DNA of 38,743 bases from Bacillota bacterium (GTDB taxonomy: Bacteria > Bacillota > Clostridia > CAKSNL01 > HGM11501). The DNA is taken from the NCBI GenBank assembly GCA_030705805.1, contig JAUZPY010000006.1, forward strand, positions 1-38,743, read 5' to 3'. This document shows positions 11,509 to 21,404 of the stretch, piece by piece; the stretch's first letter is position 1, and each line of letters opens with the position of its first letter. Both the position numbers and the translations under genes were made by a program. The notes under the pieces are model-generated. The model worked only from the letters and a program-made list of their open reading frames with translations. It was not told the DNA's origin and did not search any database.

Positions 11509-12708
11509 ATGTGGAGAAGAGTGAAAGCAATACTACTTTTAATAGCCTTTTTAATAACTCTTGCGTACCTGACAATTATTGGATTGCCTGAATATCGGGA
11601 CTTGAAAAAACAAAATAATGATAATGCGAAAACTGGTGTATCTAAAGTAAGCGATATGGAGTCAAAAGCTAAAGATGTACTCAATGATATGACTTTGGAA
11701 GAAAAAGTTTATCAAATGTTTATGGTTACACCTGAAGCTGTTACAGGGCTCGGACAAGTTACCCAGGCAGGTGATACTACAAAAGAAGCTCTTAATAACT
11801 ATCCTGTGGGGGGGATTATTTATTTTGCCCAAAACTTTATTTCACCGGATCAGACTTCTTTGATGATAAAAAATACTCAAAAGTTTTCTAAAATTCCTCT
11901 TTTTATAGGAGTAGATGAAGAGGGCGGAAAGGTTGCCCGTCTCGGTAATAACGATAAAATGGGCGTAACCAAATATCCGCCTATGGCCCAGGTAGGTAAA
12001 ACCGGAGATGAAAATAAGGCGTATGACGTGGGAAAAACTCTGGGAAAGGAGCTATCGGATCTTGGATTTAACTTGGATTTTGCACCGGTTTCCGATATAG
12101 TAACAAATCCGGAAAATAAAGTCATTGGGGATCGTGCATTTTCTACCGATGCAAAGATGGACGCAAAAATGGTTTCGGCAGTTGTCAAAGGACTACAGGA
12201 AAATAAAGTATCTGCGTGTCTTAAACATTTCCCGGGGCATGGCAGCACCTCTGCTGATACACACAATGGCTATGCCCAGACAACTCGCACGGAAGATGAA
12301 CTGAAAGCTTTGGAGTTTATTCCTTTTGAAGCAGGAATAAAAGAAGGTTCGGATTTTGTTATGGTTTCTCATATAAGCGCTGTTAATATTGATTCATCAG
12401 GCGCTCCGGCAACCCTTTCTGAAAAAATTGTCGGGGGCCTACTTCGTGGGAATTTGGGCTTTAACGGAATCATAATTACTGATGCTATGAACATGGGCGC
12501 TATTGTTAAAAACTATTCACCGGAAGAAGCGGCAGCTTTATCTGTCTTGGCGGGATGTGATATTATCCTGATGCCGGAAGATTTAAAAAGAGCAGCAGAC
12601 GGCGTAATACAGGCAATTAACAGTGGAAAAATTACAGAGGCTAGGATTAATGAAAGCGTATTAAGAATTCTGACTTTAAAAGCCCAAAAAGGCATGTTAG
12701 ACAAATAA
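11509..12708 (+). CDS. Glycoside hydrolase family 3, NagZ-like beta-N-acetylhexosaminidase
   Basis: This 399-aa protein has one N-terminal membrane segment (about residues 7-25) and a single GH3 (beta/alpha)8 domain outside the cell. Family markers are KHFPGHGSTSADTHNG, which carries the Asp-His acid/base pair typical of NagZ enzymes, and IIITDAMNMGAI with the nucleophile Asp. Such enzymes remove beta-linked N-acetylglucosamine from peptidoglycan fragments or glycans. ATG 11509 has TGGAGG 6 nt upstream; the longer frame to 11437 covers the promoter and is rejected. The products would feed the nagA-nagB pathway at 33.4 kb. It stands alone. The second GH3 domain of plant-type enzymes is absent, as is normal for NagZ. 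Confidence 0.92.
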   Translation: MWRRVKAILLLIAFLITLAYLTIIGLPEYRDLKKQNNDNAKTGVSKVSDMESKAKDVLNDMTLEEKVYQMFMVTPEAVTGLGQVTQAGDTTKEALNNYPVGGIIYFAQNFISPDQTSLMIKNTQKFSKIPLFIGVDEEGGKVARLGNNDKMGVTKYPPMAQVGKTGDENKAYDVGKTLGKELSDLGFNLDFAPVSDIVTNPENKVIGDRAFSTDAKMDAKMVSAVVKGLQENKVSACLKHFPGHGSTSADTHNGYAQTTRTEDELKALEFIPFEAGIKEGSDFVMVSHISAVNIDSSGAPATLSEKIVGGLLRGNLGFNGIIITDAMNMGAIVKNYSPEEAAALSVLAGCDIILMPEDLKRAADGVIQAINSGKITEARINESVLRILTLKAQKGMLDK

Positions 12709-12963
12709 AACTCTAAAAGCTTTATAATAAAAATTTGCTAATAGGGAAGTTTGAAATGGTGGTTTGTAAATGGCTGATTTCCTGAAGATATAATCTTATA
12801 GGGTATTTTTAAACCTACAGATGAGTACAAGGGAAAATTCCCGACAATTGATAAGTGTGACTATTGGGAGACAGCCCAGTAGGAGATTAGTTGACTATCT
12901 GAACTTGCTCCGGAGAAGTCTATTTTATAAAAGGTAAATATTTGAAAATATTGGGCTAAACTA
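12709..12963 (+). other. Non-coding interval with hairpins, possible structured RNA
   Basis: There is no gene between the GH3 stop and the tetR promoter. Hairpins include GGGAA-aa-TTCCC (12831-12842), CTATTGGG with CCCAGTAG (12861-12868 / 12875-12882) and the palindrome CTCCGGAG near 12909. I could not match it to a riboswitch class I know. A TATAAT at 12723-12728 or 12789-12794 might start a short transcript, but neither has a good -35. Confidence 0.35.
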
Positions 12964-12992
12964 TTGACAAATGAAATGACTTATGGTAATAT
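12964..12992 (+). promoter_or_regulatory. Sigma-A promoter of the tetR gene
   Basis: TTGACA (12964-12969), 17 bp, TAATAT (12987-12992). The -35 matches the consensus exactly. The start site should fall within the operator that follows. Confidence 0.85.
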
Positions 12993-12994
12993 CA

Positions 12995-13017
12995 TTTCAG
13001 CACACAGCGTGCTGAAA
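12995..13017 (+). promoter_or_regulatory. Operator 1: perfect palindrome over the tetR transcription start
   Basis: TTTCAGCAC (12995-13003) and GTGCTGAAA (13009-13017) are perfect 9-bp arms around a 5-bp spacer, placed 2 bp after the -10 box. A repressor bound here would block its own promoter. The core AGCAC-N5-GTGCT recurs four more times before fabH. Confidence 0.85.
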
Positions 13018-13049
13018 CTTCTGTATTTGGTTTGAAAAGGGTGTTTTTT

Positions 13050-13631
13050 GTGGCATATTCAAAAGGAACAAAGCTTGAAGATGAAATTTCAGAAGAAATT
13101 ATTGCGGTTGCTACCCAAATAGCATACACGGATGGCGTCGGGCATATAAGTGTTAAAAGGATACTTTCTGAGCTTGGAGTTACCAACAGGGTATTTTATA
13201 ACCGTTTCAGGAACTTAGACGATGTGCTTGTAGTTGTGTATGACAGGATAATGAACCAAATGCGTGAGTGTATTTCGCAAGGCTATGACGAGAGCAAGGA
13301 TTATTTTGAATACTTGATAGATCTGGCCGTTACGGTTTTGCGTAAAACCTATGAGGATAAATTGCATTTCAGTCATTATATGTTTGAATACGACTCATAC
13401 AAGGACAGCAACAGAAATTGGTGGATTGACCATATGATACCGATTTTTGACTATGGCATTGAAAAAGGTTTATTAAGGAAAATGGACACGAGGCTACTCG
13501 GTTATTCCATCTGGTGCTTTTTGAGAGGCTTTAATGCAGACGCTGTGGGCGGAGGACTGACTTTTGAAGAGGCCTTAGATTCATTTAAGCTCGGTATTAA
13601 TTGCTTTTTAGAAGGTATGAAAAAAAGATAA
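13050..13631 (+). CDS. TetR-family regulator, predicted repressor of the fab operon
   Basis: This 193-aa protein has an N-terminal TetR helix-turn-helix (about residues 15-62: EEIIAVATQIAYTDGVGHIS, then ILSELGVTNRVFYNRFRN) and an all-helical ligand/dimer domain. GTG 13050 is chosen because AAAAGGG lies about 8 nt upstream; the in-frame TTG at 13032 precedes that site. Its promoter carries a perfect palindrome, and four copies of the same core lie between it and fabH, so autoregulation and control of fatty-acid synthesis are strongly suggested. The ligand is probably an acyl-CoA or acyl-ACP, by analogy with FabR and FadR-type TetR proteins; that is inference. FapR and FabT, the usual Gram-positive regulators, belong to other families. 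Confidence 0.88.
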   Translation: MAYSKGTKLEDEISEEIIAVATQIAYTDGVGHISVKRILSELGVTNRVFYNRFRNLDDVLVVVYDRIMNQMRECISQGYDESKDYFEYLIDLAVTVLRKTYEDKLHFSHYMFEYDSYKDSNRNWWIDHMIPIFDYGIEKGLLRKMDTRLLGYSIWCFLRGFNADAVGGGLTFEEALDSFKLGINCFLEGMKKR

Positions 13632-13648
13632 CAGAGGGTATAAATGAA

Positions 13649-13673
13649 AAGAGAGAGAAATCTCTTCTTTTTC
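13649..13673 (+). terminator. Intrinsic terminator of tetR
   Basis: AAGAGA (13649-13654), a 6-nt loop and TCTCTT (13661-13666) are followed by CTTTTTC. The stem is short, so read-through into the fab leader is possible. Confidence 0.55.
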
Positions 13674-13678
13674 TGTAG

Positions 13679-13693
13679 AGCACATGGCGTGCT
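13679..13693 (+). promoter_or_regulatory. Operator 2: AGCAC-N5-GTGCT
   Basis: AGCAC (13679-13683) and GTGCT (13689-13693) flank a spacer ATGGC. It lies directly after the tetR terminator, with no clear promoter beside it. Confidence 0.7.
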
Positions 13694-13864
13694 GAGGATG
13701 CGCATAGGTTTATTTATATTTGAAACACATCCACATAATGTGGCTTGGTGCTGATAAGTGGGTGGGGCAGCTGTGTTTCTGACAAATGCAGCTTTACTTT
13801 AAATCCTGCCTCTAATAAAACCTGATGCAAAAATCAGTAGGGAAGTAAAGCGTGAGCGGAGCAG
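13694..13864 (+). other. Structured, gene-free part of the fab leader
   Basis: GCTTTACTT (13791-13799) pairs with AAGTAAAGC (13843-13851) around an inner hairpin CTGAT/ATCAG (13822-13826 / 13833-13837). CCACAT-a-ATGTGG (13731-13743) is a further palindrome. No ORF with a ribosome site is present. It may be a small RNA or part of an upstream-initiated leader. Confidence 0.4.
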
Positions 13865-13938
13865 TTAAACTTAATTTGAATTATGACTATATTTACAGGG
13901 CAAATTCCTGTAAAAAAATATTGAGCACGAGGTGTGCT
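13865..13938 (+). promoter_or_regulatory. fab module A: promoter, TTTACAG hairpin, operator 3
   Basis: TTAAAC (13865-13870), 17 bp and TATATT (13888-13893) form a weak sigma-A promoter. It runs into the palindrome TTTACAGG-N7-CCTGTAAA (13892-13914), an A-tract, and AGCAC-GAGGT-GTGCT (13924-13938). The same order recurs in modules B and C. Confidence 0.6.
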
Positions 13939-13970
13939 AAAGGTAGATAGAGTTCAGCCGACTTTTTATT

Positions 13971-13999
13971 TTGTTTAAGTATGTTCTATAAGGTATACT
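13971..13999 (+). promoter_or_regulatory. Candidate sigma-A promoter in the fab leader
   Basis: TTGTTT (13971-13976), 17 bp, TATACT (13994-13999). It lies between operators 3 and 4, so repressor bound at operator 4 could still act as a roadblock. Confidence 0.5.
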
Positions 14000-14067
14000 G
14001 TTAAAAGCGGGGATAAGATTTAAATAAAACATTTTATCTTACGGGTAAAGAGAGTTATATAAGAAAG

Positions 14068-14141
14068 TTTAATTAAAATCTACATGGTTTTATATTTACA
14101 GGGAGTTACCCTGTAAAAAAATATTGAGCACGAGGTGTGCT
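14068..14141 (+). promoter_or_regulatory. fab module B: promoter, TTTACAG hairpin, operator 4
   Basis: TTTAAT (14068-14073), 17 bp and TATATT (14091-14096) precede TTTACAGGG-AGTTA-CCCTGTAAA (14095-14117), an A-tract and AGCAC-GAGGT-GTGCT (14127-14141). The stretch from the hairpin's right arm through the operator is nearly identical to module A. Confidence 0.6.
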
Positions 14142-14213
14142 AAGAAGTGGTCAGTTTATTTGCTGATATTTACAGGAAATTCGTTCTTTGAAAAATGTAA
14201 GTATGATAAACAT

Positions 14214-14290
14214 TTGGAAGGTTAAAATTAAATCTATATATTGTTGTAATTTACAGTATTGCTGTAAAAAATGAGAGCACTAAATGTGCT
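14214..14290 (+). promoter_or_regulatory. fab module C: promoter, TTTACAG hairpin, operator 5
   Basis: TTGGAA (14214-14219), 17 bp and TATATT (14237-14242) precede TTTACAG-TATTG-CTGTAAA (14250-14268) and AGCAC-TAAAT-GTGCT (14276-14290). The hairpin has lost two base pairs on both sides together, and the operator spacer differs while the arms do not, so both palindromes look conserved. It ends 22 bp before fabH and is the nearest promoter to the operon. Confidence 0.65.
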
Positions 14291-14312
14291 AAAAATAGCC
14301 AAGGAGTGTATT

Positions 14313-15266
14313 ATGAGTTTTAAAATTATAGGTACAGGAAGCTATGTACCGGAGCACATTGTGACAAATGACGACTTAGCTTCAATTGTTGATACTTCTG
14401 ACGAATGGATCACTCAGAGAGTCGGCGTTCATGAAAGAAGAGTGTCCGTAAATGAAACGGCAGCAGATTTAGCTTATAAAGCAGCGTTAAATGCACTTTC
14501 GGAAAGCGGCGTTAAACCTACAGAACTGGACCTTATTATTGCAGCTTCAATATCAGGAGAAACATTATGTCCCACAGTTGCAGGATTCGTTCAGAGCAAG
14601 CTTGGAGCAACCTGTCCTGCATTTGACATTAACTCAGCTTGCAGCGGATTTTTGTTTGCACTGGATGTAGCAGCAGGCTTTTATGCTCGGGGAAATGTTA
14701 AAAAAGCGCTTATAATAGGAGCTGAAAGACTTTCAAAAATTATCGACTGGAAGGACAGAAGTACCTGCGTAATATTCGGTGATGGTGCGGGAGCTGTTGT
14801 AACTGATGCGGGTGATAACTATTTATCATCTAAGATTTGTACAAAAGGCGGCAGCGATGTTATTGAGATTCCAAGCTTTAGCGGTTCGTCACCATTTTAT
14901 GAAAGTCCCGGTAAGAGCCCTTATATCTTTATGCAAGGGCAGGAAACATTTAAGTTTGCGGTTAATGCAATGACTGAAGACGTTAAAGAAGTTGTAAGCA
15001 AGGCAAATTTGAGCCTTGACGATATAAAATACTTTATTCCACATCAGGCAAACATCAGGATTATTCAGTTTGCAAGTAAAAAATTAGGTATTCCCATAGA
15101 TAAGTTTGTTGTAAATATAGAAAAATACGGCAACACATCTGCTGCAAGCGTTCCGATGGCGCTTGATCAGATAAATAAATCCGGCAATTTAAACAGAGGC
15201 GATTTATTGGCTTTATCAGCTTTCGGGGGCGGCCTTTCAAGTGCTGCTTCCATAATAAGATGGTAG
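14313..15266 (+). CDS. fabH: Beta-ketoacyl-ACP synthase III
   Basis: This 317-aa thiolase-fold enzyme starts fatty-acid synthesis by condensing a primer acyl-CoA with malonyl-ACP. The Cys-His-Asn triad is visible at Cys110 (DINSACSGF), His244 (FIPHQANIR) and Asn274 (KYGNTSAAS), close to the Escherichia coli numbering. ATG 14313 has AAGGAG at 7-nt spacing; a frame open to 14271 overlaps operator 5 and is rejected. It is the first gene of a nine-gene operon running to 21404 with gaps of at most about 40 bp. Control is predicted through the TetR operators upstream. Confidence 0.97.
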   Translation: MSFKIIGTGSYVPEHIVTNDDLASIVDTSDEWITQRVGVHERRVSVNETAADLAYKAALNALSESGVKPTELDLIIAASISGETLCPTVAGFVQSKLGATCPAFDINSACSGFLFALDVAAGFYARGNVKKALIIGAERLSKIIDWKDRSTCVIFGDGAGAVVTDAGDNYLSSKICTKGGSDVIEIPSFSGSSPFYESPGKSPYIFMQGQETFKFAVNAMTEDVKEVVSKANLSLDDIKYFIPHQANIRIIQFASKKLGIPIDKFVVNIEKYGNTSAASVPMALDQINKSGNLNRGDLLALSAFGGGLSSAASIIRW

Positions 15267-15303: not shown

Positions 15304-15525
15304 ATGATATTAGAAAAAGTAAAAAAATTATTAGCAGAACACCTTGATATGGATGAATCGGAAATTACCGAAGAAACTACCTTTGAAGATTTGGGTATTG
15401 ATTCACTGGATACCGTTGAAATTCTTATGGAACTGGAAGAAGAGTTCGGTATTGAATTCAAAATGGATGAAGGTAAAAAATCTGTAGGAGATCTTGTAAA
15501 GTATATAAGTTCAAAAAAGGAGTAA
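15304..15525 (+). CDS. acpP: Acyl carrier protein
   Basis: This 73-aa acidic carrier holds growing acyl chains on 4'-phosphopantetheine attached to Ser34 in the canonical motif DLGIDSLDTVEILM. ATG 15304 follows GGAGGAAG at suitable spacing; an in-frame TTG at 15289 lies in the ribosome site itself. It sits 37 bp after fabH and 5 bp before fabK. With its regular LG-x-DSL motif and location it is the probable main carrier for fatty-acid synthesis, while the carrier at 8169 is divergent. Confidence 0.96.
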   Translation: MILEKVKKLLAEHLDMDESEITEETTFEDLGIDSLDTVEILMELEEEFGIEFKMDEGKKSVGDLVKYISSKKE

Positions 15526-15530
15526 TAAAA

Positions 15531-16475
15531 ATGATCAGCACACCAATTTGCGATATGCTTGGTATTAAATATCCGATTTTTCAGGGCGGAATGGCGCATA
15601 TTGCCGATGGCAAATTAGCGGCAGCCGTTTCTAATGCCGGAGGAATTGGTATAATATCAGCAATGAATTGTGACAGTAAATATCTTAAGGAACAAATAAA
15701 TATTGCAAAAAGCTTAACGGATAAGCCTTTTGGTGTAAATGTAATGCTTATGAGCCCATATACAGAGGAGGTTGCGGCATTTTTGGCAGAGGAGAAGGTT
15801 GCCGTTATAACAACAGGTGCCGGAAATCCTTCAAGGTATATGGATATTTGGAATAGAGCAGGAATAAAGGTTATCCCTGTTGTACCGTCTGTAGCATTGG
15901 CAAAGCTTGTTGAAAGAGCAGGAGCCTGCGCAGTTATAGCAGAAGGCGGCGAATCCGGCGGCCATGTAGGAGATTTAACTACAATGGTTCTGGTACCGCA
16001 AGTATCGGATGCTGTAAAAATTCCTGTAATTGCAGCCGGAGGTATCGGGGATGGCAGAGGTGTTGCGGCAGCATTTATGCTTGGAGCAGTTGGAGTACAG
16101 CTTGGCACGAAATTTTTACTTGCTAAGGAATGCAGCGTTCATCAGAACTATAAAAATAAAGTTTTGAAAGCCACAGACATTTCAACAATTGTAACAGGTA
16201 AAAGATTAGGTCATCCTGTAAGGAGTCTTCGCACACCGTTTTCAAGAGAATATTCAAAGTTTGAGTACTCAAATATTTCAGATGAAGACCTTGAAAAGAT
16301 GGCAGTAGGCGCTTTAAGGCTTGCGGCAAAAGAAGGCGATGAGAAAAAAGGATGTTTCCTTGCAGGTCAGATTGCCGGAATGCTTAATAAAGAACAGACA
16401 TCAAAAGAAATAGTTGAAGAAATATTTGAGGAAGCAGAGACTATATTGAATGGAGCTAAAGTATGGGTAAAATAG
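15531..16475 (+). CDS. fabK: Enoyl-ACP reductase II (FMN-dependent)
   Basis: This 314-aa flavoprotein of the nitronate-monooxygenase/IMPDH-like TIM-barrel family reduces the enoyl-ACP double bond, the last step of each elongation cycle. Markers are the N-terminal YPIFQGGMAHIADGKLAAAV, the segment AEGGESGGHVG and VIAAGGIGDGRGVAAAF with the FMN phosphate-binding glycines. FabK is the triclosan-tolerant alternative to FabI; no fabI occurs in the window. The ATG has AAAGGAG upstream. The gene overlaps fabD by 13 bp, giving translational coupling. Confidence 0.96.
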   Translation: MISTPICDMLGIKYPIFQGGMAHIADGKLAAAVSNAGGIGIISAMNCDSKYLKEQINIAKSLTDKPFGVNVMLMSPYTEEVAAFLAEEKVAVITTGAGNPSRYMDIWNRAGIKVIPVVPSVALAKLVERAGACAVIAEGGESGGHVGDLTTMVLVPQVSDAVKIPVIAAGGIGDGRGVAAAFMLGAVGVQLGTKFLLAKECSVHQNYKNKVLKATDISTIVTGKRLGHPVRSLRTPFSREYSKFEYSNISDEDLEKMAVGALRLAAKEGDEKKGCFLAGQIAGMLNKEQTSKEIVEEIFEEAETILNGAKVWVK

Positions 16476-17383
16476 CATTTGTTTTTTCAGGGCAAGGCGC
16501 TCAGTACAGCGGAATGGGCAAATCTTTGTATGATATAAGCAGCGCATCAAAGAACCTCTACGATTATGCAGAATCCATAAGGCAAGGTACAATCGAGCAG
16601 TCATTTAAAGGTACTGATGAAGAGCTGAAACAGACAAAAAATACGCAGCCATGTTTATACTTAGTAGATTTGTCAGCTGCCCTTGCACTTAAAGAACAGG
16701 GCATAAATGCAGATGCAGTAGCAGGCTTTTCGTTAGGAGAAATAGCTGCACTTGCATTTGGCAATGCTTATTCTGCCGAGGATGGTTTTAAAATCGTTGT
16801 AAAAAGAGGCCAGTTTATGCAAGAGGCCTCCGGAAAGCATGATACAAAAATGGCAGCGGTTTTAAAGCTTGACAGCGAAACAATTGAAAAAGTCTGCAGT
16901 GAATTTGAAGATGTTTACCCTGTTAATTATAATTCGGCAGGCCAGACGGTTGTGGCAGGTAAAAGTGATGAACTTGAGCTTTTCAAGGAAAAAATGAAAG
17001 AATACCCTTGCAGGATTATTGATTTGGCTGTCAGCGGAGCATTTCATTCACCTTTTATGAAAGAGGCTTCGGACAAATTTTCTGAAACACTAAAGGAATT
17101 TAAGTTAAGTAAGCCCGAAATTCCTGTGTATGCAAATTTGACAGCCCTGCCCTACGGGGAGAATGTTGCAGAGATGCTGACAAAGCAGATTATAAGCCCT
17201 GTAAGGTGGCAAAAAACTATTGAAAATATGATAAATGACGGAGTAACAACCTTTATAGAGGTTGGTGCCGGAAAAACATTAAGCGGTCTTATTAAGAAAA
17301 TTTCAAGCGACGTTAAGGTTTATTCCGTTGAAGATGAAGGGTCGCTTTTGGAAACGGTTAAGGCGGTGAAGGAAAATGCTTAA
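16463..17383 (+). CDS. fabD: Malonyl-CoA:ACP transacylase
   Basis: This 306-aa alpha/beta-hydrolase-like enzyme moves malonyl groups from CoA to the carrier protein. The oxyanion-hole motif GQGAQ is at residues 10-14, the nucleophile Ser90 lies in AVAGFSLGE (Phe in place of the more common His or Leu before Ser), and the catalytic His is in GAFHSPFM. It overlaps fabK by 13 bp and fabG by 8 bp. Its malonyl-CoA comes from acetyl-CoA carboxylase, whose carboxyltransferase subunits are at the end of the operon. Confidence 0.96.
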   Translation: MGKIAFVFSGQGAQYSGMGKSLYDISSASKNLYDYAESIRQGTIEQSFKGTDEELKQTKNTQPCLYLVDLSAALALKEQGINADAVAGFSLGEIAALAFGNAYSAEDGFKIVVKRGQFMQEASGKHDTKMAAVLKLDSETIEKVCSEFEDVYPVNYNSAGQTVVAGKSDELELFKEKMKEYPCRIIDLAVSGAFHSPFMKEASDKFSETLKEFKLSKPEIPVYANLTALPYGENVAEMLTKQIISPVRWQKTIENMINDGVTTFIEVGAGKTLSGLIKKISSDVKVYSVEDEGSLLETVKAVKENA

Positions 17384-18110
17384 AGGCAAAACAGCTGTCA
17401 TAACAGGTGCATCAAGAGGAATCGGCAAAGCAATTGCGCTGAAGTTTGCTACTCAAAAAGCCAACGTTGCAATTATATATTGCGGAAACAAGGAAAAAGC
17501 AGATGAAGTGCTGAAAGAAGCATTATCCTTTGGAGTAAATGCCAAGGCTTATAAATGCAATGTAGCCGACTTATCTGAATGCGGTGATACAATAAAACAG
17601 ATTATTGCTGATTTCGGCGGCATTGACATACTTGTAAACAATGCCGGTATAACGAGAGATAAGCTTATGCTTCAGATGGATGAAAGCGATTTTTCCGACG
17701 TTATTGATACAAACCTTAAAGGCGCTTTTAATATGATAAAGTGCTGTTATAAGGAATTTATGAAAAAACGCTATGGTAAGATTATTAATATCAGCTCCGT
17801 AGCCGGTCTTTCGGGAAATGCAGGGCAGACTAACTATTCAGCATCAAAGTCAGGCATTATCGGCCTTTCAAAATCCGTAGCCAAAGAGCTTGCGGGCAGG
17901 AATGTATGCTGTAATGCTATAGCCCCCGGTTTTGTTGAAACTGATATGACTGAAAAATTTAAAGAACACGAAGAAATTTTAAATACAATTCCCCTGAAAA
18001 GAATGGGCAAACCGGAAGAAGTTGCTAATCTTGCAGCCTTTCTTGCGGACGATATATCTGATTACATTACAGGTGAAGTAATCCGCATTGACGGCGGACT
18101 TGCAATGTAG
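17376..18110 (+). CDS. fabG: 3-oxoacyl-ACP reductase
   Basis: This 244-aa short-chain dehydrogenase reduces beta-ketoacyl-ACP with NADPH. Visible elements are the cofactor motif TGASRGIG near residue 11, NNAGIT, the catalytic Ser in IINISSVAG, Tyr and Lys in YSASKSG, and the C-terminal IRIDGGLAM. Length is normal. It starts inside the last codons of fabD (8-bp overlap) and is followed after 12 bp by fabF, which has GGAGGAG as its ribosome site. Confidence 0.97.
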   Translation: MLKGKTAVITGASRGIGKAIALKFATQKANVAIIYCGNKEKADEVLKEALSFGVNAKAYKCNVADLSECGDTIKQIIADFGGIDILVNNAGITRDKLMLQMDESDFSDVIDTNLKGAFNMIKCCYKEFMKKRYGKIINISSVAGLSGNAGQTNYSASKSGIIGLSKSVAKELAGRNVCCNAIAPGFVETDMTEKFKEHEEILNTIPLKRMGKPEEVANLAAFLADDISDYITGEVIRIDGGLAM

Positions 18111-18122
18111 GGAGGAGAACTT

Positions 18123-19352
18123 ATGCGAAAAGTAGTAGTAACAGGAATGGGTGTAATTTCACCCATAGGAAATGATGTCCAAACATTTTGGAATAGCCTC
18201 ATAGAGGGAAAAAACGGTATAGATCAAATTACCCACTTTGATGCAAGCGAATTTAAATGCAAAATTGCAGCCGAAGTAAAGGACTTTGATCCAAGCCTTT
18301 ATATGGAGAAAAGCGATATAAGAAAAACTGACCTTTTTGTTCAGTATGCTTTAGCTGCAGCTTCCCAAGCTGTATCTGACAGTAAAATTCTCGGAGAAAT
18401 AGAACCTGAAAACTTTGGAGTTTATTTTGGCTCCGGTATCGGCGGATTTAACACATTCGCACAGGAACAAATCAACTTAACGGAAAAAGGTCCAAGGCGT
18501 GTTTCTCCTTTATTCATTCCTAAAATGATTTCAAATATTGCGGCAGGAAACATTGCCATTAATTTTAATGCGCAGGGTCCATGCCTGTCAATTACAACTG
18601 CCTGTGCAACAGGAACAAACTGTATCGGTGAGGCATACAGAACCATAAAACACGGTTATGCCGATGCTGTAATTACAGGTGGCTCGGAAGCATCTATAAC
18701 TCCCCTTGGAGTTGCAGGGTTTGTTAACTGTATGGCACTTACGGATTCCGAAGATAAAGACGCTGCATCTATACCCTTTGACAAACGCAGAAGCGGCTTT
18801 GTAATGGGCGAAGGTGCCGGTGCATTGATACTTGAAGAATATGAGCACGCAAAAAAGCGCGGTGCAAAAATATATTGTGAAATAGCAGGATATGGCAGCA
18901 CTTGTGATGCTTTTCATGTTACAGCACCCCATCCCGAAGCTATCGGAGGTGCAAGAGCAATTGCAGATGCAGTAAAAGAGTCCGGCATGGAAAATGAAGA
19001 AAATATCTATATTAACGCTCATGGAACAAGTACCACTTTAAACGATAAGACAGAAACCCTTGCAATTAAAAAAGCACTGGGGGATAAGGCTTATACCGTT
19101 GATATAAGTTCCACAAAATCAATGACAGGTCATATGCTTGGAGCGGCAGGTGCCGTTGAGGCAATCGTTTCGATTTTGACATTGAAAAATGGTATAATTC
19201 CGCCAACCATTAATCTTAAAGAGCCTGATGAAGAGTGCGATTTAAACTATACACCGTTAGTAAGCAAACAAAAGGAAATTAATCTTGCACTTTCGATTTC
19301 CCTTGGATTTGGCGGACATAATGCCTGCATTGCTTTAAAAAAGGAGCAATAA
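18123..19352 (+). CDS. fabF: Beta-ketoacyl-ACP synthase II
   Basis: This 409-aa thiolase-fold condensing enzyme elongates acyl-ACP with malonyl-ACP. The nucleophile Cys161 is in ITTACATGTNC; the two active-site histidines are in INAHGTST and MTGHMLGAAGA. Length is normal. In most Firmicutes accB follows fabF, but here fabZ starts one base after the fabF stop. GGAGGAG precedes the ATG at about 5-nt spacing. Confidence 0.97.
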   Translation: MRKVVVTGMGVISPIGNDVQTFWNSLIEGKNGIDQITHFDASEFKCKIAAEVKDFDPSLYMEKSDIRKTDLFVQYALAAASQAVSDSKILGEIEPENFGVYFGSGIGGFNTFAQEQINLTEKGPRRVSPLFIPKMISNIAAGNIAINFNAQGPCLSITTACATGTNCIGEAYRTIKHGYADAVITGGSEASITPLGVAGFVNCMALTDSEDKDAASIPFDKRRSGFVMGEGAGALILEEYEHAKKRGAKIYCEIAGYGSTCDAFHVTAPHPEAIGGARAIADAVKESGMENEENIYINAHGTSTTLNDKTETLAIKKALGDKAYTVDISSTKSMTGHMLGAAGAVEAIVSILTLKNGIIPPTINLKEPDEECDLNYTPLVSKQKEINLALSISLGFGGHNACIALKKEQ

Positions 19353-19353
19353 T

Positions 19354-19773
19354 ATGGACAGACAGGAAATAATGAAAGTTATTCCTCACAGAGATAATAT
19401 GCTTTTGCTTGATGAGGCATTGCTTCTTGATGGCATTGCTCACGGTAAGAAGAAAATTACCGGTGAAGAATGGTTTTTAAAGGGTCATTTTCCCGGCAAT
19501 CCCATTGTTCCCGGAGTAATACTCTGTGAAATTTTGGCACAGACAACTTGTGCCTGTCTTGCCGATTTAGATATAAAAAATAAAAATACCTTTTTTACGA
19601 GCCTTGATAAAGTAAGATTCAAAAAAAGCGTATTGCCCGGCGATTTATTTGAAACCGAGTGTGAAATAGTAAAAGTTCATGAACCTTTTTATTTTGCCAA
19701 GGGCATAGGAAAAGTAAATGGAGAGGTATGCGTAACAGCTGAATTTTCATTTGCATTAACTGATAAAGCTTAA
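19354..19773 (+). CDS. fabZ: 3-hydroxyacyl-ACP dehydratase
   Basis: This 139-aa hot-dog-fold dehydratase removes water from 3-hydroxyacyl-ACP. The catalytic His is in KGHFPGNPIVPGV and the Glu in LCEILAQT. Length is normal. The AAGGAG site lies in the last codons of fabF. Of the genes usually seen around fabZ in clostridial operons, accB before it and accC after it are both missing; accD follows after 21 bp. Confidence 0.96.
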   Translation: MDRQEIMKVIPHRDNMLLLDEALLLDGIAHGKKKITGEEWFLKGHFPGNPIVPGVILCEILAQTTCACLADLDIKNKNTFFTSLDKVRFKKSVLPGDLFETECEIVKVHEPFYFAKGIGKVNGEVCVTAEFSFALTDKA

Positions 19774-19794: not shown

Positions 19795-20616
19795 ATGTTG
19801 AAATTAAATAGTATATTTAACCTTCAAAAAGAAAAAAACGTTGAAGTAATGTTATGTAAAAAATGTAATAGTGAATACTCTTCTGATGAGCTTATGGAAA
19901 ATGACATGATATGCAAAAACTGCGGAACATATTTCAGAATGAATGCAAGGCAAAGAATAAAAAGCATTACAGATGAAGGCAGTTTTGAAGAAATGTTTAA
20001 TGACTTATCAAGCAGTAATTTTTTATCTTTTCCCAATTATACGGAAAAGCTTGAAGCGGCAAAAAAAACAAGCGGAGAAAGCGAAGCTGTTGTTTGTGGC
20101 ACGGCGAAAATAAACGGTATGAAAACAGCAATCTTTGTAATGGACTCAACGTTTATGATGGGAAGCATGGGTATTGTTGTGGGTGAAAAAATTACAAGGA
20201 TATTTGAATATGCAACAGAAGAAAAACTGCCGGTTTTAGGTTTTACAACTTCCGGCGGTGCAAGAATGCAGGAAGGCATATTCTCGCTTATGCAGATGGC
20301 AAAGGTAAGCGGAGCTGTAAAAAGACACAGCAATGAAGGCCTTTTGTATATTGCTGTATTAACCGACCCTACAACCGGAGGAGTAACCGCAAGCTTTGCT
20401 ATGGAAGGTGATATAACAATAGCGGAGCCTAATGCTTTGGTTGGATTTGCAGGGGCAAGGGTAATAGAGCAGACAACGGGACAAAAGTTGCCGGAAGGAT
20501 TTCAGCGTGCGGAATTTTTGATGAACCATGGGTTTGTAGATATGATTGAGAGCAGGAGAAAGCTAAGATATGTAATTTCTAAAATTCTGCTTATGCATGA
20601 CTTTAAAAGAAACTGA
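19795..20616 (+). CDS. accD: Acetyl-CoA carboxylase carboxyltransferase, beta subunit
   Basis: This 273-aa crotonase-fold subunit pairs with AccA to move CO2 from biotin to acetyl-CoA. A four-cysteine zinc ribbon is present at Cys21, Cys24, Cys40 and Cys43 (LCKKC and ICKNC). The oxyanion-hole segment [12 protein letters not shown] and [13 protein letters not shown] are typical. It is slightly shorter than the usual 285-300 aa, mostly at the C-terminus. The stop overlaps or nearly abuts accA. Confidence 0.95.
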
Positions 20617-20630
20617 TGGGATGTGATAAA

Positions 20631-21404
20631 ATGAAAGCTTATGAAAGAGTTTTAAACGCCAGAAAAAGCCAGCGTCCTATGGGCGGCTTCTATATAAAAA
20701 GATTAGTCAATAATTTTCTAGAGCTTCACGGAGATAAGAGATACGGTGACGATAGTGCCATAGTCGGAGGAATCGGCATGATTAATGACATTCCGGTTAC
20801 TGTTATTGCCATGGAGCGCGGCGACACAATTGAGGATCGTATCAAAAGAAATTTCGGATGTCCAAGCCCGGAAGGGTACAGAAAAGCCTTGCGCCTTATG
20901 AAACAAGCTGAAAAGTTTCATAGACCAATCATTTGCTTTATCGGAAGTTCGGGCGCTCACTGCGGAATTGAAGCTGAAGAGCGCGGGCAAGGAGAAGCAA
21001 TAGCAGAGAACTTAATGGAAATGATGGCACTAAAGACCCCCATTATATCAGTTGTTGTAGGCGAGGGGGGAAGCGGAGGTGCGCTTGCGCTGGGTGTTGC
21101 GGATACTGTTATGATGCTTGAAAATTCCGTTTATTCCGTAATTTCTCCCGAAGGCTGCGCAAGTATTTTGTGGAAGGATGCCGCTAAAGCTGATGAAGCA
21201 GCCGAAGCTTTAAAATTAACAGCCGAAGATTTATATAAATTCGGAGTTATTGAAAAAGTAATACCGGAGCGAGAAAAGAATTTTGATGAAATTTGTGACG
21301 ATTTAAAAACCGAAATATTAAATGAACTTAAAGAGAAAATGGAACTATCCCCGGAAAAGCTACTGGATAACAGATACCAAAGATTCAGAAAAATAGGAGC
21401 GTAA
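20631..21404 (+). CDS. accA: Acetyl-CoA carboxylase carboxyltransferase, alpha subunit
   Basis: This 257-aa subunit has the family segments LHGDKRYGDD, FGCPSPEGYRKALRLMKQAE and SVVGEGGSGGALALG. It lacks the N-terminal coiled extension of about 50 residues found in Bacillus AccA, as do other clostridial forms. I prefer ATG 20631, preceded by GGGATGTGA; the in-frame ATG 20616 overlaps the accD stop (TGATG) and would add MGCDK. It ends the operon, with a strong terminator 37 bp on. No accB or accC is in the window, so the biotin half of the enzyme must be encoded elsewhere. Confidence 0.94.
   Translation: MKAYERVLNARKSQRPMGGFYIKRLVNNFLELHGDKRYGDDSAIVGGIGMINDIPVTVIAMERGDTIEDRIKRNFGCPSPEGYRKALRLMKQAEKFHRPIICFIGSSGAHCGIEAEERGQGEAIAENLMEMMALKTPIISVVVGEGGSGGALALGVADTVMMLENSVYSVISPEGCASILWKDAAKADEAAEALKLTAEDLYKFGVIEKVIPEREKNFDEICDDLKTEILNELKEKMELSPEKLLDNRYQRFRKIGA

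Follow-up and report, generated by a model that had tools for sequence, protein, structure and literature searches.

FabR of Escherichia coli and DesT of Pseudomonas are TetR-type proteins that repress lipid genes through a palindromic operator. In this they resemble the TetR protein described here, but they differ from it in controlling unsaturated-chain genes. FasR of Corynebacterium glutamicum is a TetR-type fatty-acid regulator. TetR proteins are usually dimers. In Firmicutes such as Bacillus and Staphylococcus the whole type II fatty-acid and phospholipid set is repressed by FapR, whose gene lies near fabH; FapR belongs to another protein family than the TetR studied here, recognizes another operator and senses malonyl-CoA (PMC3536700, PMC5052256). 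FabT of streptococci and enterococci is encoded within the fab operon and controls an operon of the FabK type, but it has a MarR fold, another operator and acyl-ACP as corepressor (PMC9083066). FasR of Mycobacterium and Corynebacterium is of TetR type, acts on fatty-acid synthesis in Gram-positives and responds to acyl-CoA (PMC5541348), but its targets are the type I fas gene and acpS, and in mycobacteria it is an activator. FasR (SPV_0647) of Streptococcus pneumoniae, also of TetR type, affects fabM and fakB3; it was set apart from the present protein by its description, being encoded outside the fab operon, having a positive effect and no binding site found (PMC12647141).

Since TetR regulators of fatty-acid genes are already known, the kind is not new. 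A sequence-only reading of the DNA analysed here held that the fab regulators known in Gram-positives do not belong to the TetR type; it passes over mycobacterial FasR (PMC5541348), the pneumococcal FasR (PMC12647141) and also FasR of Corynebacterium glutamicum. In the open-licence literature we found no case in Clostridia of a TetR autoregulator heading a complete type II operon of the FabH-FabK kind, nor its operator or an exclusion of FapR (such absence is weak evidence). Searches of the same literature for the operator sequence, and for the control of membrane-lipid synthesis in gut Clostridia that belong to neither the FapR nor the FabT group, were also negative.

The tetR-fab locus

The window is the whole stretch of DNA that was analysed (38,743 nucleotides). 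It carries a TetR-type repressor gene, tetR (13050..13631, + strand), which encodes 193 aa and has a GTG start; in several homologues a MAYS-like start is found at the same place. The gene is preceded by a promoter (12964..12992, + strand) consisting of the -35 box TTGACA (12964-12969), a 17-bp spacer and the -10 box TAATAT (12987-12992), and matching the consensus at 10 of 12 positions. The fab operon begins 682 bp after tetR with fabH (ketoacyl-ACP synthase III, 14313..15266) and acpP (acyl carrier protein, 15304..15525), both identified by family matches. These are followed by fabK (enoyl-ACP reductase II, 15531..16475; TIGR03151, 451.7 bits at a cut-off of 453.1), fabD (malonyl-CoA:ACP transacylase, 16463..17383; family match), fabG (ketoacyl-ACP reductase, 17376..18110; assigned from its translation and operon position), fabF (ketoacyl-ACP synthase II, 18123..19352; family match), fabZ (hydroxyacyl-ACP dehydratase, 19354..19773; NF000582, 112.2 bits at a cut-off of 113) and accD (carboxyltransferase beta, 19795..20616; family match). 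An accA-like gene (carboxyltransferase alpha, 20616..21404), assigned from translation and position, ends the run. All these genes are on the + strand.

The window TetR alone scored 19.2 bits with Pfam TetR_N, under the cut-off of 24; among 46 homologues, 43 matched this helix-turn-helix (PF00440, best 2.5e-7), and the recognition segment NRVFYNRF showed no variation. The predicted structure of the window protein (mean pLDDT 86.1) has eight helices in the all-helical, two-domain TetR fold. The best Foldseek matches of the model were generic TetR proteins, among them EthR and SaFadR in complex with lauroyl-CoA, and these neighbours of the predicted structure hint at a hydrophobic ligand. In a family library search no named TetR subfamily reached its cut-off with the window protein: the Bacillus FadR model (NF053878) gave 21 bits at a cut-off of 200. 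The mycobacterial FasR model (NF053731) matched three of the 46 homologues weakly (best 4.4e-5) and the FabR model (NF008402) one (5.4e-5), none above cut-off. A MarR-type winged helix, the mark of FabT, was not detected in the window protein.

The operator

The palindrome AGCAC-N5-GTGCT had been reported at 12999, 13679, 13924, 14127 and 14276 and nowhere else in the window. All five were verified as exact copies, the four at 13679-14276 do lie between tetR and fabH, and the window holds no sixth. A scan of the 2,016,278-base assembly returned the same five sites and no others; the motif read backwards, used as a control, occurred once. When two mismatches to a 17-bp form of the operator were allowed, 64 places were found in the genome, mostly with poor cores, against 12 for the control.

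On the basis of 161 sites of other genomes the operator was refined to TTCAGCACAC-N-GTGTGCTGAA, with T as the central base of the consensus. A weight matrix built from these sites was then scored on the window. It gave 31.1 for O1 (TTCAGCACACAGCGTGCTGAA, 12996..13016), 19.6 for O2 (AGCACATGGCGTGCT, 13679..13693), 19.8 for O3 (AGCACGAGGTGTGCT, 13924..13938), 18.7 for O4 (AGCACGAGGTGTGCT, 14127..14141) and 12.5 for O5 (AGCACTAAATGTGCT, 14276..14290), the weakest, which is separated from the start codon of fabH by 22 bp; the next best position of the window scored 2.9. O1 is at the 73rd percentile of the family sites; O2-O5 are weak members (bottom 1-4%). The A at position 6, found in approximately 97% of family sites, is absent in the three sites nearest fabH (O3-O5), which is why their scores fall in the bottom few per cent, and because of this departure from the consensus their occupancy is uncertain. 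Moreover, the sites at 13924 and 14127 are not independent, since both are included in a 53-bp repeat (89% identical) between tetR and fabH.

Two features of the palindrome described earlier required modification. The first copy had been placed on the start of tetR: it begins 7 bp after the -10 box and covers the probable transcription start, but not the translation start, as it ends 36 bp before the GTG at 13050. The arms, said to be constant around a varying spacer, are exact at all five sites; the spacer is, however, constrained to AC-N-GT across the family. A palindromic operator over its own promoter is a trait of the TetR family, and O1 is placed as this trait would predict.

The operator travels with the TetR protein

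Homologous loci were collected by protein and not by motif. This TetR was found in 28 of 391 genomes of the class. A larger collection yielded 176 loci with homologues, of which the best 80 were taken; after removal of duplicates the comparison set comprised 87 loci, the window's own included, chosen by their similarity to the window TetR. Nearly all are from uncultured genomes, and their promoters and hairpins were assigned by computation. The homologues are approximately 40-53% identical, and the hosts are gut Clostridia and Elusimicrobiaceae. When 399 genomes of the phylum were searched, no further member was added at E <= 1e-25.

The motif, whose definition had been fixed on the window alone, was then tested at the other loci. 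An exact site was present in 66 of the 87 loci, and 80 had a site within one mismatch. Within 300 bp of tetR there were 61 exact sites upstream and 61 downstream (about 2.3-2.4 per kb); elsewhere in the same loci five were found in 804 kb (0.006 per kb), an enrichment of approximately 370-fold in the tetR flanks. Seven loci were without a site at up to one mismatch. One of these is at a contig end (L028), one has a form with a 4-bp spacer (L032) and one a form with two mismatches (L034); in L053, L084, L091 and L107 an operator was looked for and none was seen. Around fabH of 18 genomes without this TetR, 69 kb of sequence contained no exact site, indicating that the site follows the protein and not fabH. 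The sequence-only reading had proposed scanning the genome and its relatives, and held that a motif frequent in the genome and unrelated to lipid genes would speak against the circuit. The scan did not turn out this way: the copies in this genome are confined to the tetR-fab locus, and elsewhere the motif adjoins homologues of the same TetR. The notion that the repeated sites are leftovers of a small mobile or low-complexity repeat agrees with the 53-bp duplication that includes 13924 and 14127, but the genome has no further copy, and dozens of genomes carry the same site at the promoter of tetR within flanks that are unrelated; we give this explanation practically no weight.

A promoter of the type TTGACA-N16-18-TATAAT was found at tetR in all 79 loci scored, with 10-12 of 12 positions matching. 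The operator starts 0-16 bp past the -10 box in 78 of the 79, most commonly at 6 bp, on the predicted transcription start. At a few loci (L098, L099, L105, L079) an operator is located in the spacer between the -35 and -10 boxes (offset -20), either replacing the one at the start site or in addition to it; in L105 it is the sole site. As far as can be judged from sequence, the layout of the tetR promoter is that of a self-controlling repressor of initiation.

Some Ruminococcus-type loci, several of them with two, have two to four head-to-tail sites with a 15-bp period at the tetR promoter; in one locus (L063:5866-5930) four such operators, one-mismatch forms included, follow just past the -10 box. 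This arrangement suggests that several dimers are bound side by side. In L016 and L065 an in-frame TAA is found at the start of the tetR match, probably upstream of the true start codon.

Genes downstream of tetR and the relation to FapR

The commonest downstream unit (41 of the 87 loci) was the operon fabH-acpP-fabK-fabD-fabG-fabF-fabZ-accD. Otherwise tetR was followed by a gene for an AMP-binding acyl ligase (20/87), a DegV/FakB-type protein (4/87), a 4HBT thioesterase (4/87) or an Aas-like acyltransferase-ligase fusion (3/87), the last two in Elusimicrobiaceae. Rarer neighbours were an old-yellow-enzyme-type oxidoreductase, an iron alcohol dehydrogenase, an endonuclease-type gene and recA. 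The proposal of an autoregulated repressor acting on a whole type II operon is thus supported by the comparison as to the operator at its own promoter and the complete fab operon, in many genera; fatty-acid synthesis as the target fits about half of the loci. At the locus with recA (L068:402-2187), TetR and operator stand ahead of a gene that one would hardly expect beside a regulator of lipid genes. In Elusimicrobiaceae, which belong to a different phylum, TetR and operator precede the thioesterase or the fusion gene (L031, L034-L037, L039, L044), and the protein was likely acquired there by horizontal transfer among gut or rumen bacteria.

In a quick TetR tree with an arbitrary root, fab-linked proteins branched deeply on either side; the link with fab is therefore either old or repeatedly formed. 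When 16 genomes were scanned with a tighter pattern, nearly all sites adjoined tetR, and the regulon is therefore local; the exceptions were three AGCACAGCCTGTGCT-type palindromes in G012 and one site within the operon of G053. FabH proteins encoded next to this TetR are approximately 56-72% identical to the window FabH, those of genomes without this TetR 40-47% (56% in G003). The fab operon may have been inherited along with its regulator. In one genome of the same family as the window's genome (G001, 97% complete), neither a FabH relative at E <= 1e-40 nor such a TetR was found; this organism may be without de novo synthesis or may use a different initiation enzyme.

FapR was scored with the NCBIfam model NF003359, and matches of at least 75 bits were taken as real (the next best score was 33 bits). 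Real FapR was found in 129 of the 391 genomes sampled and in none of the 28 that have this TetR, where an overlap of 9.2 was expected (P = 8e-6, relatedness ignored). The best match to the FapR model in the window's genome (G000) had E = 1.1e-4 and does not count as FapR. Four families (f10, f14, f17, f29) each include genera with FapR and genera with this TetR. We read this as functional replacement of FapR by the TetR.

The gene neighbourhood also bears on the possibility that the TetR controls itself alone or an efflux-type function, and that it adjoins fab by chance or shared inheritance. The weak library matches of the protein do include the efflux regulator MtrR, and the fab-linked members show some clustering in the tree. 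However, tetR directly precedes fabH in 41 of 87 loci across deep branches, its other neighbours are mostly lipid genes and seldom transporters (L053 has a single EamA gene, encoded on the opposite strand), and the protein was never found together with FapR. This explanation is very unlikely.

The sites between tetR and fabH

The sites downstream of tetR differ from that at its promoter. Among the 87 loci 63 exact sites lie between tetR and the next gene (at most 700 bp), and promoter scores before them resembled those of random positions, unlike the nearly perfect tetR promoters of the same genomes; the scan employed a TTGACA/TATAAT-type consensus, and a fabH promoter of another sigma class is outside its reach. 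As O2-O5 are without a recognisable fabH promoter, they are probably elongation or auxiliary sites. We think it unlikely that they are ordinary operators on an unrecognised fabH promoter repressed by TetR. A weak TTTACA-N16-AAAAAT (9/12) right before O3 and O4 would fit such a promoter, but besides the random-like scores at the 63 sites and the contrast with tetR, its TTTACA is one arm of a hairpin that has a different sequence at every other locus.

Hairpins are the second feature of these sites and had been overlooked in the sequence-only reading. In the window each of O2-O5 is preceded by one (all + strand): H2 (13646..13672), terminator-like with a T-rich tail (-9.3 kcal/mol, z -1.4, weak); H3 (13892..13914), TTTACAGG...CCTGTAAA (-9.1 kcal/mol, z -3.6); H4 (14095..14117), with the same arms TTTACAGG...CCTGTAAA (-11.8 kcal/mol, z -2.8), belonging with O4 to the 53-bp duplication that it shares with H3-O3; and H5 (14250..14268), TTTACAGtattgCTGTAAA (-6.4 kcal/mol, z -2.1). 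The approximately 190 bp between O2 and H3 (13700-13890) have a terminator-like hairpin at 13769-13793 as their only assigned feature. An Rfam search over 12600-14400 gave only chance-level matches, hence no known riboswitch or leader is indicated. The palindrome TTTACAG...CTGTAAA has three copies in the genome, all at this locus, and occurs in no relative with that sequence. It was considered as the site of a second regulator and reclassified as structure, the downstream operators of relatives having hairpins of other sequence.

Folding of the 37 bases before the 63 downstream sites gave a median z of -3.6, with 68% below -2; before the tetR sites the median was +0.14. By a simple energy rule a hairpin was present at 53 of the 63 sites and in 32 of 36 loci. 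The hairpins end mostly 7-14 nt before the operator, and A makes up 51% of the linker and T 31%. The sequence of the hairpins varies from locus to locus and among the tandem units of a single locus, with the pairing preserved: L045 has CGGACTG...CAGTCCG where its relative L047, with the same flanks, has CGGCGG...CCGCCG. Three small effects were seen. G-T outnumbered C-A mismatches 4 to 1, GNRA loops occurred four times on the + strand and not at all on the other, and the folding energy of the + strand was slightly lower (P = 0.02). This suggests, from sequence comparison, that selection acts on the coding-strand RNA. In fab-linked loci an exact downstream site was always present when the gap between tetR and fabH was at least 66 bp and never when it was 64 bp or less; the window gap of 682 bp is the longest among them.

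Processing that separates an unstable from a stable mRNA is known from cggR-gapA of Bacillus. O2-O5 could similarly be mainly RNA elements, the hairpin, the A/U-rich linker and the palindrome as a second hairpin forming a processing site at which cleavage in the linker yields separate mRNAs, unstable for tetR and stable for fab. We consider this somewhat improbable. The frequency and stability of the predicted hairpins (53/63; median z -3.6, compared with 0.14 upstream of tetR), the composition of the linker, the G-U pairs, the + strand-only GNRA loops (4 to 0) with the lower + strand energy, and the different hairpins of tandem units at one locus all agree with it. The palindrome, however, conserves its exact sequence besides its pairing, is the same site as the operator at the promoter, and in some cases (offsets -20 and 0-3) precedes the start of tetR transcription in part or completely; it is therefore not an RNA element alone. 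It may be both RNA element and operator.

A proposed model of regulation

The explanation that we regard as very likely as a whole is that a TetR repressor acts through the palindrome in two ways, by blocking initiation at tetR and by a roadblock downstream. A TetR-type repressor, presumably as a dimer, would bind TTCAGCACAC-N-GTGTGCTGAA. At O1 (12996-13016) it would block initiation of tetR; of all steps in the model this has the strongest support. No second promoter could be recognised, so tetR and the fab operon are probably transcribed as one unit, and O1 would therefore also govern fabH-accA. With no promoter at O2-O5, elongation control or RNA processing remain as their roles. Repressor bound there probably obstructs polymerase arriving from tetR, the roadblock adding tightness. 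Roadblocking is established for the repressors PurR, GalR, CodY and LacI (PMC10310618, PMC4132739), and the placement of O2-O5, downstream of the promoter, fits it. DNA looping from O1 to O2-O5 was considered and set aside, TetR proteins being usually dimers. Where members of the family have other targets, these are genes for acyl ligases, FakB-type proteins and thioesterases, and for this reason the signal would most likely be a fatty acyl thioester or fatty acid, acting as end-product feedback.

For the hairpins, candidate roles are pausing, help in releasing a stalled polymerase, and processing between the tetR and fab mRNAs. The nearest analogue may be the Pol I terminators (Reb1/TTF1), which similarly combine an RNA hairpin, a stretch of low G+C and a sequence-specific protein roadblock, both hairpin and roadblock being needed for termination; polymerase halts 15 bp before the protein site and the hairpin lies 20 nt further back (PMC12366685). 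Their hairpin is thus about 35 bp before the protein site, whereas in the units described here the distance is mostly 7-14, with a mostly A-rich linker. Exact Pol I-type termination was rejected: a polymerase halted approximately 15 bp before the operator would not have completed the hairpin. Since the hairpin could form only after polymerase has entered the operator, it may act after departure of the repressor, or in RNA processing. Hairpin, A/T-rich linker and operator might together be a new regulatory module, single or up to four in a row, at which a ligand-controlled repressor stops or releases polymerase in mid-operon and so sets enzyme output apart from regulator output. This we put forward as a tentative possibility; a hairpin-operator composite was described nowhere in the open-licence literature searched.

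If they work as proposed, the hairpin-operator units would be a natural bacterial pairing of RNA structure with a protein roadblock. The TetR case offers a protein family with clear bounds, an exactly specified operator and, with respect to FapR, an apparent either-or relation, and judging from its arrangement the pair of repressor and operator looks like an off-switch for membrane-lipid synthesis.
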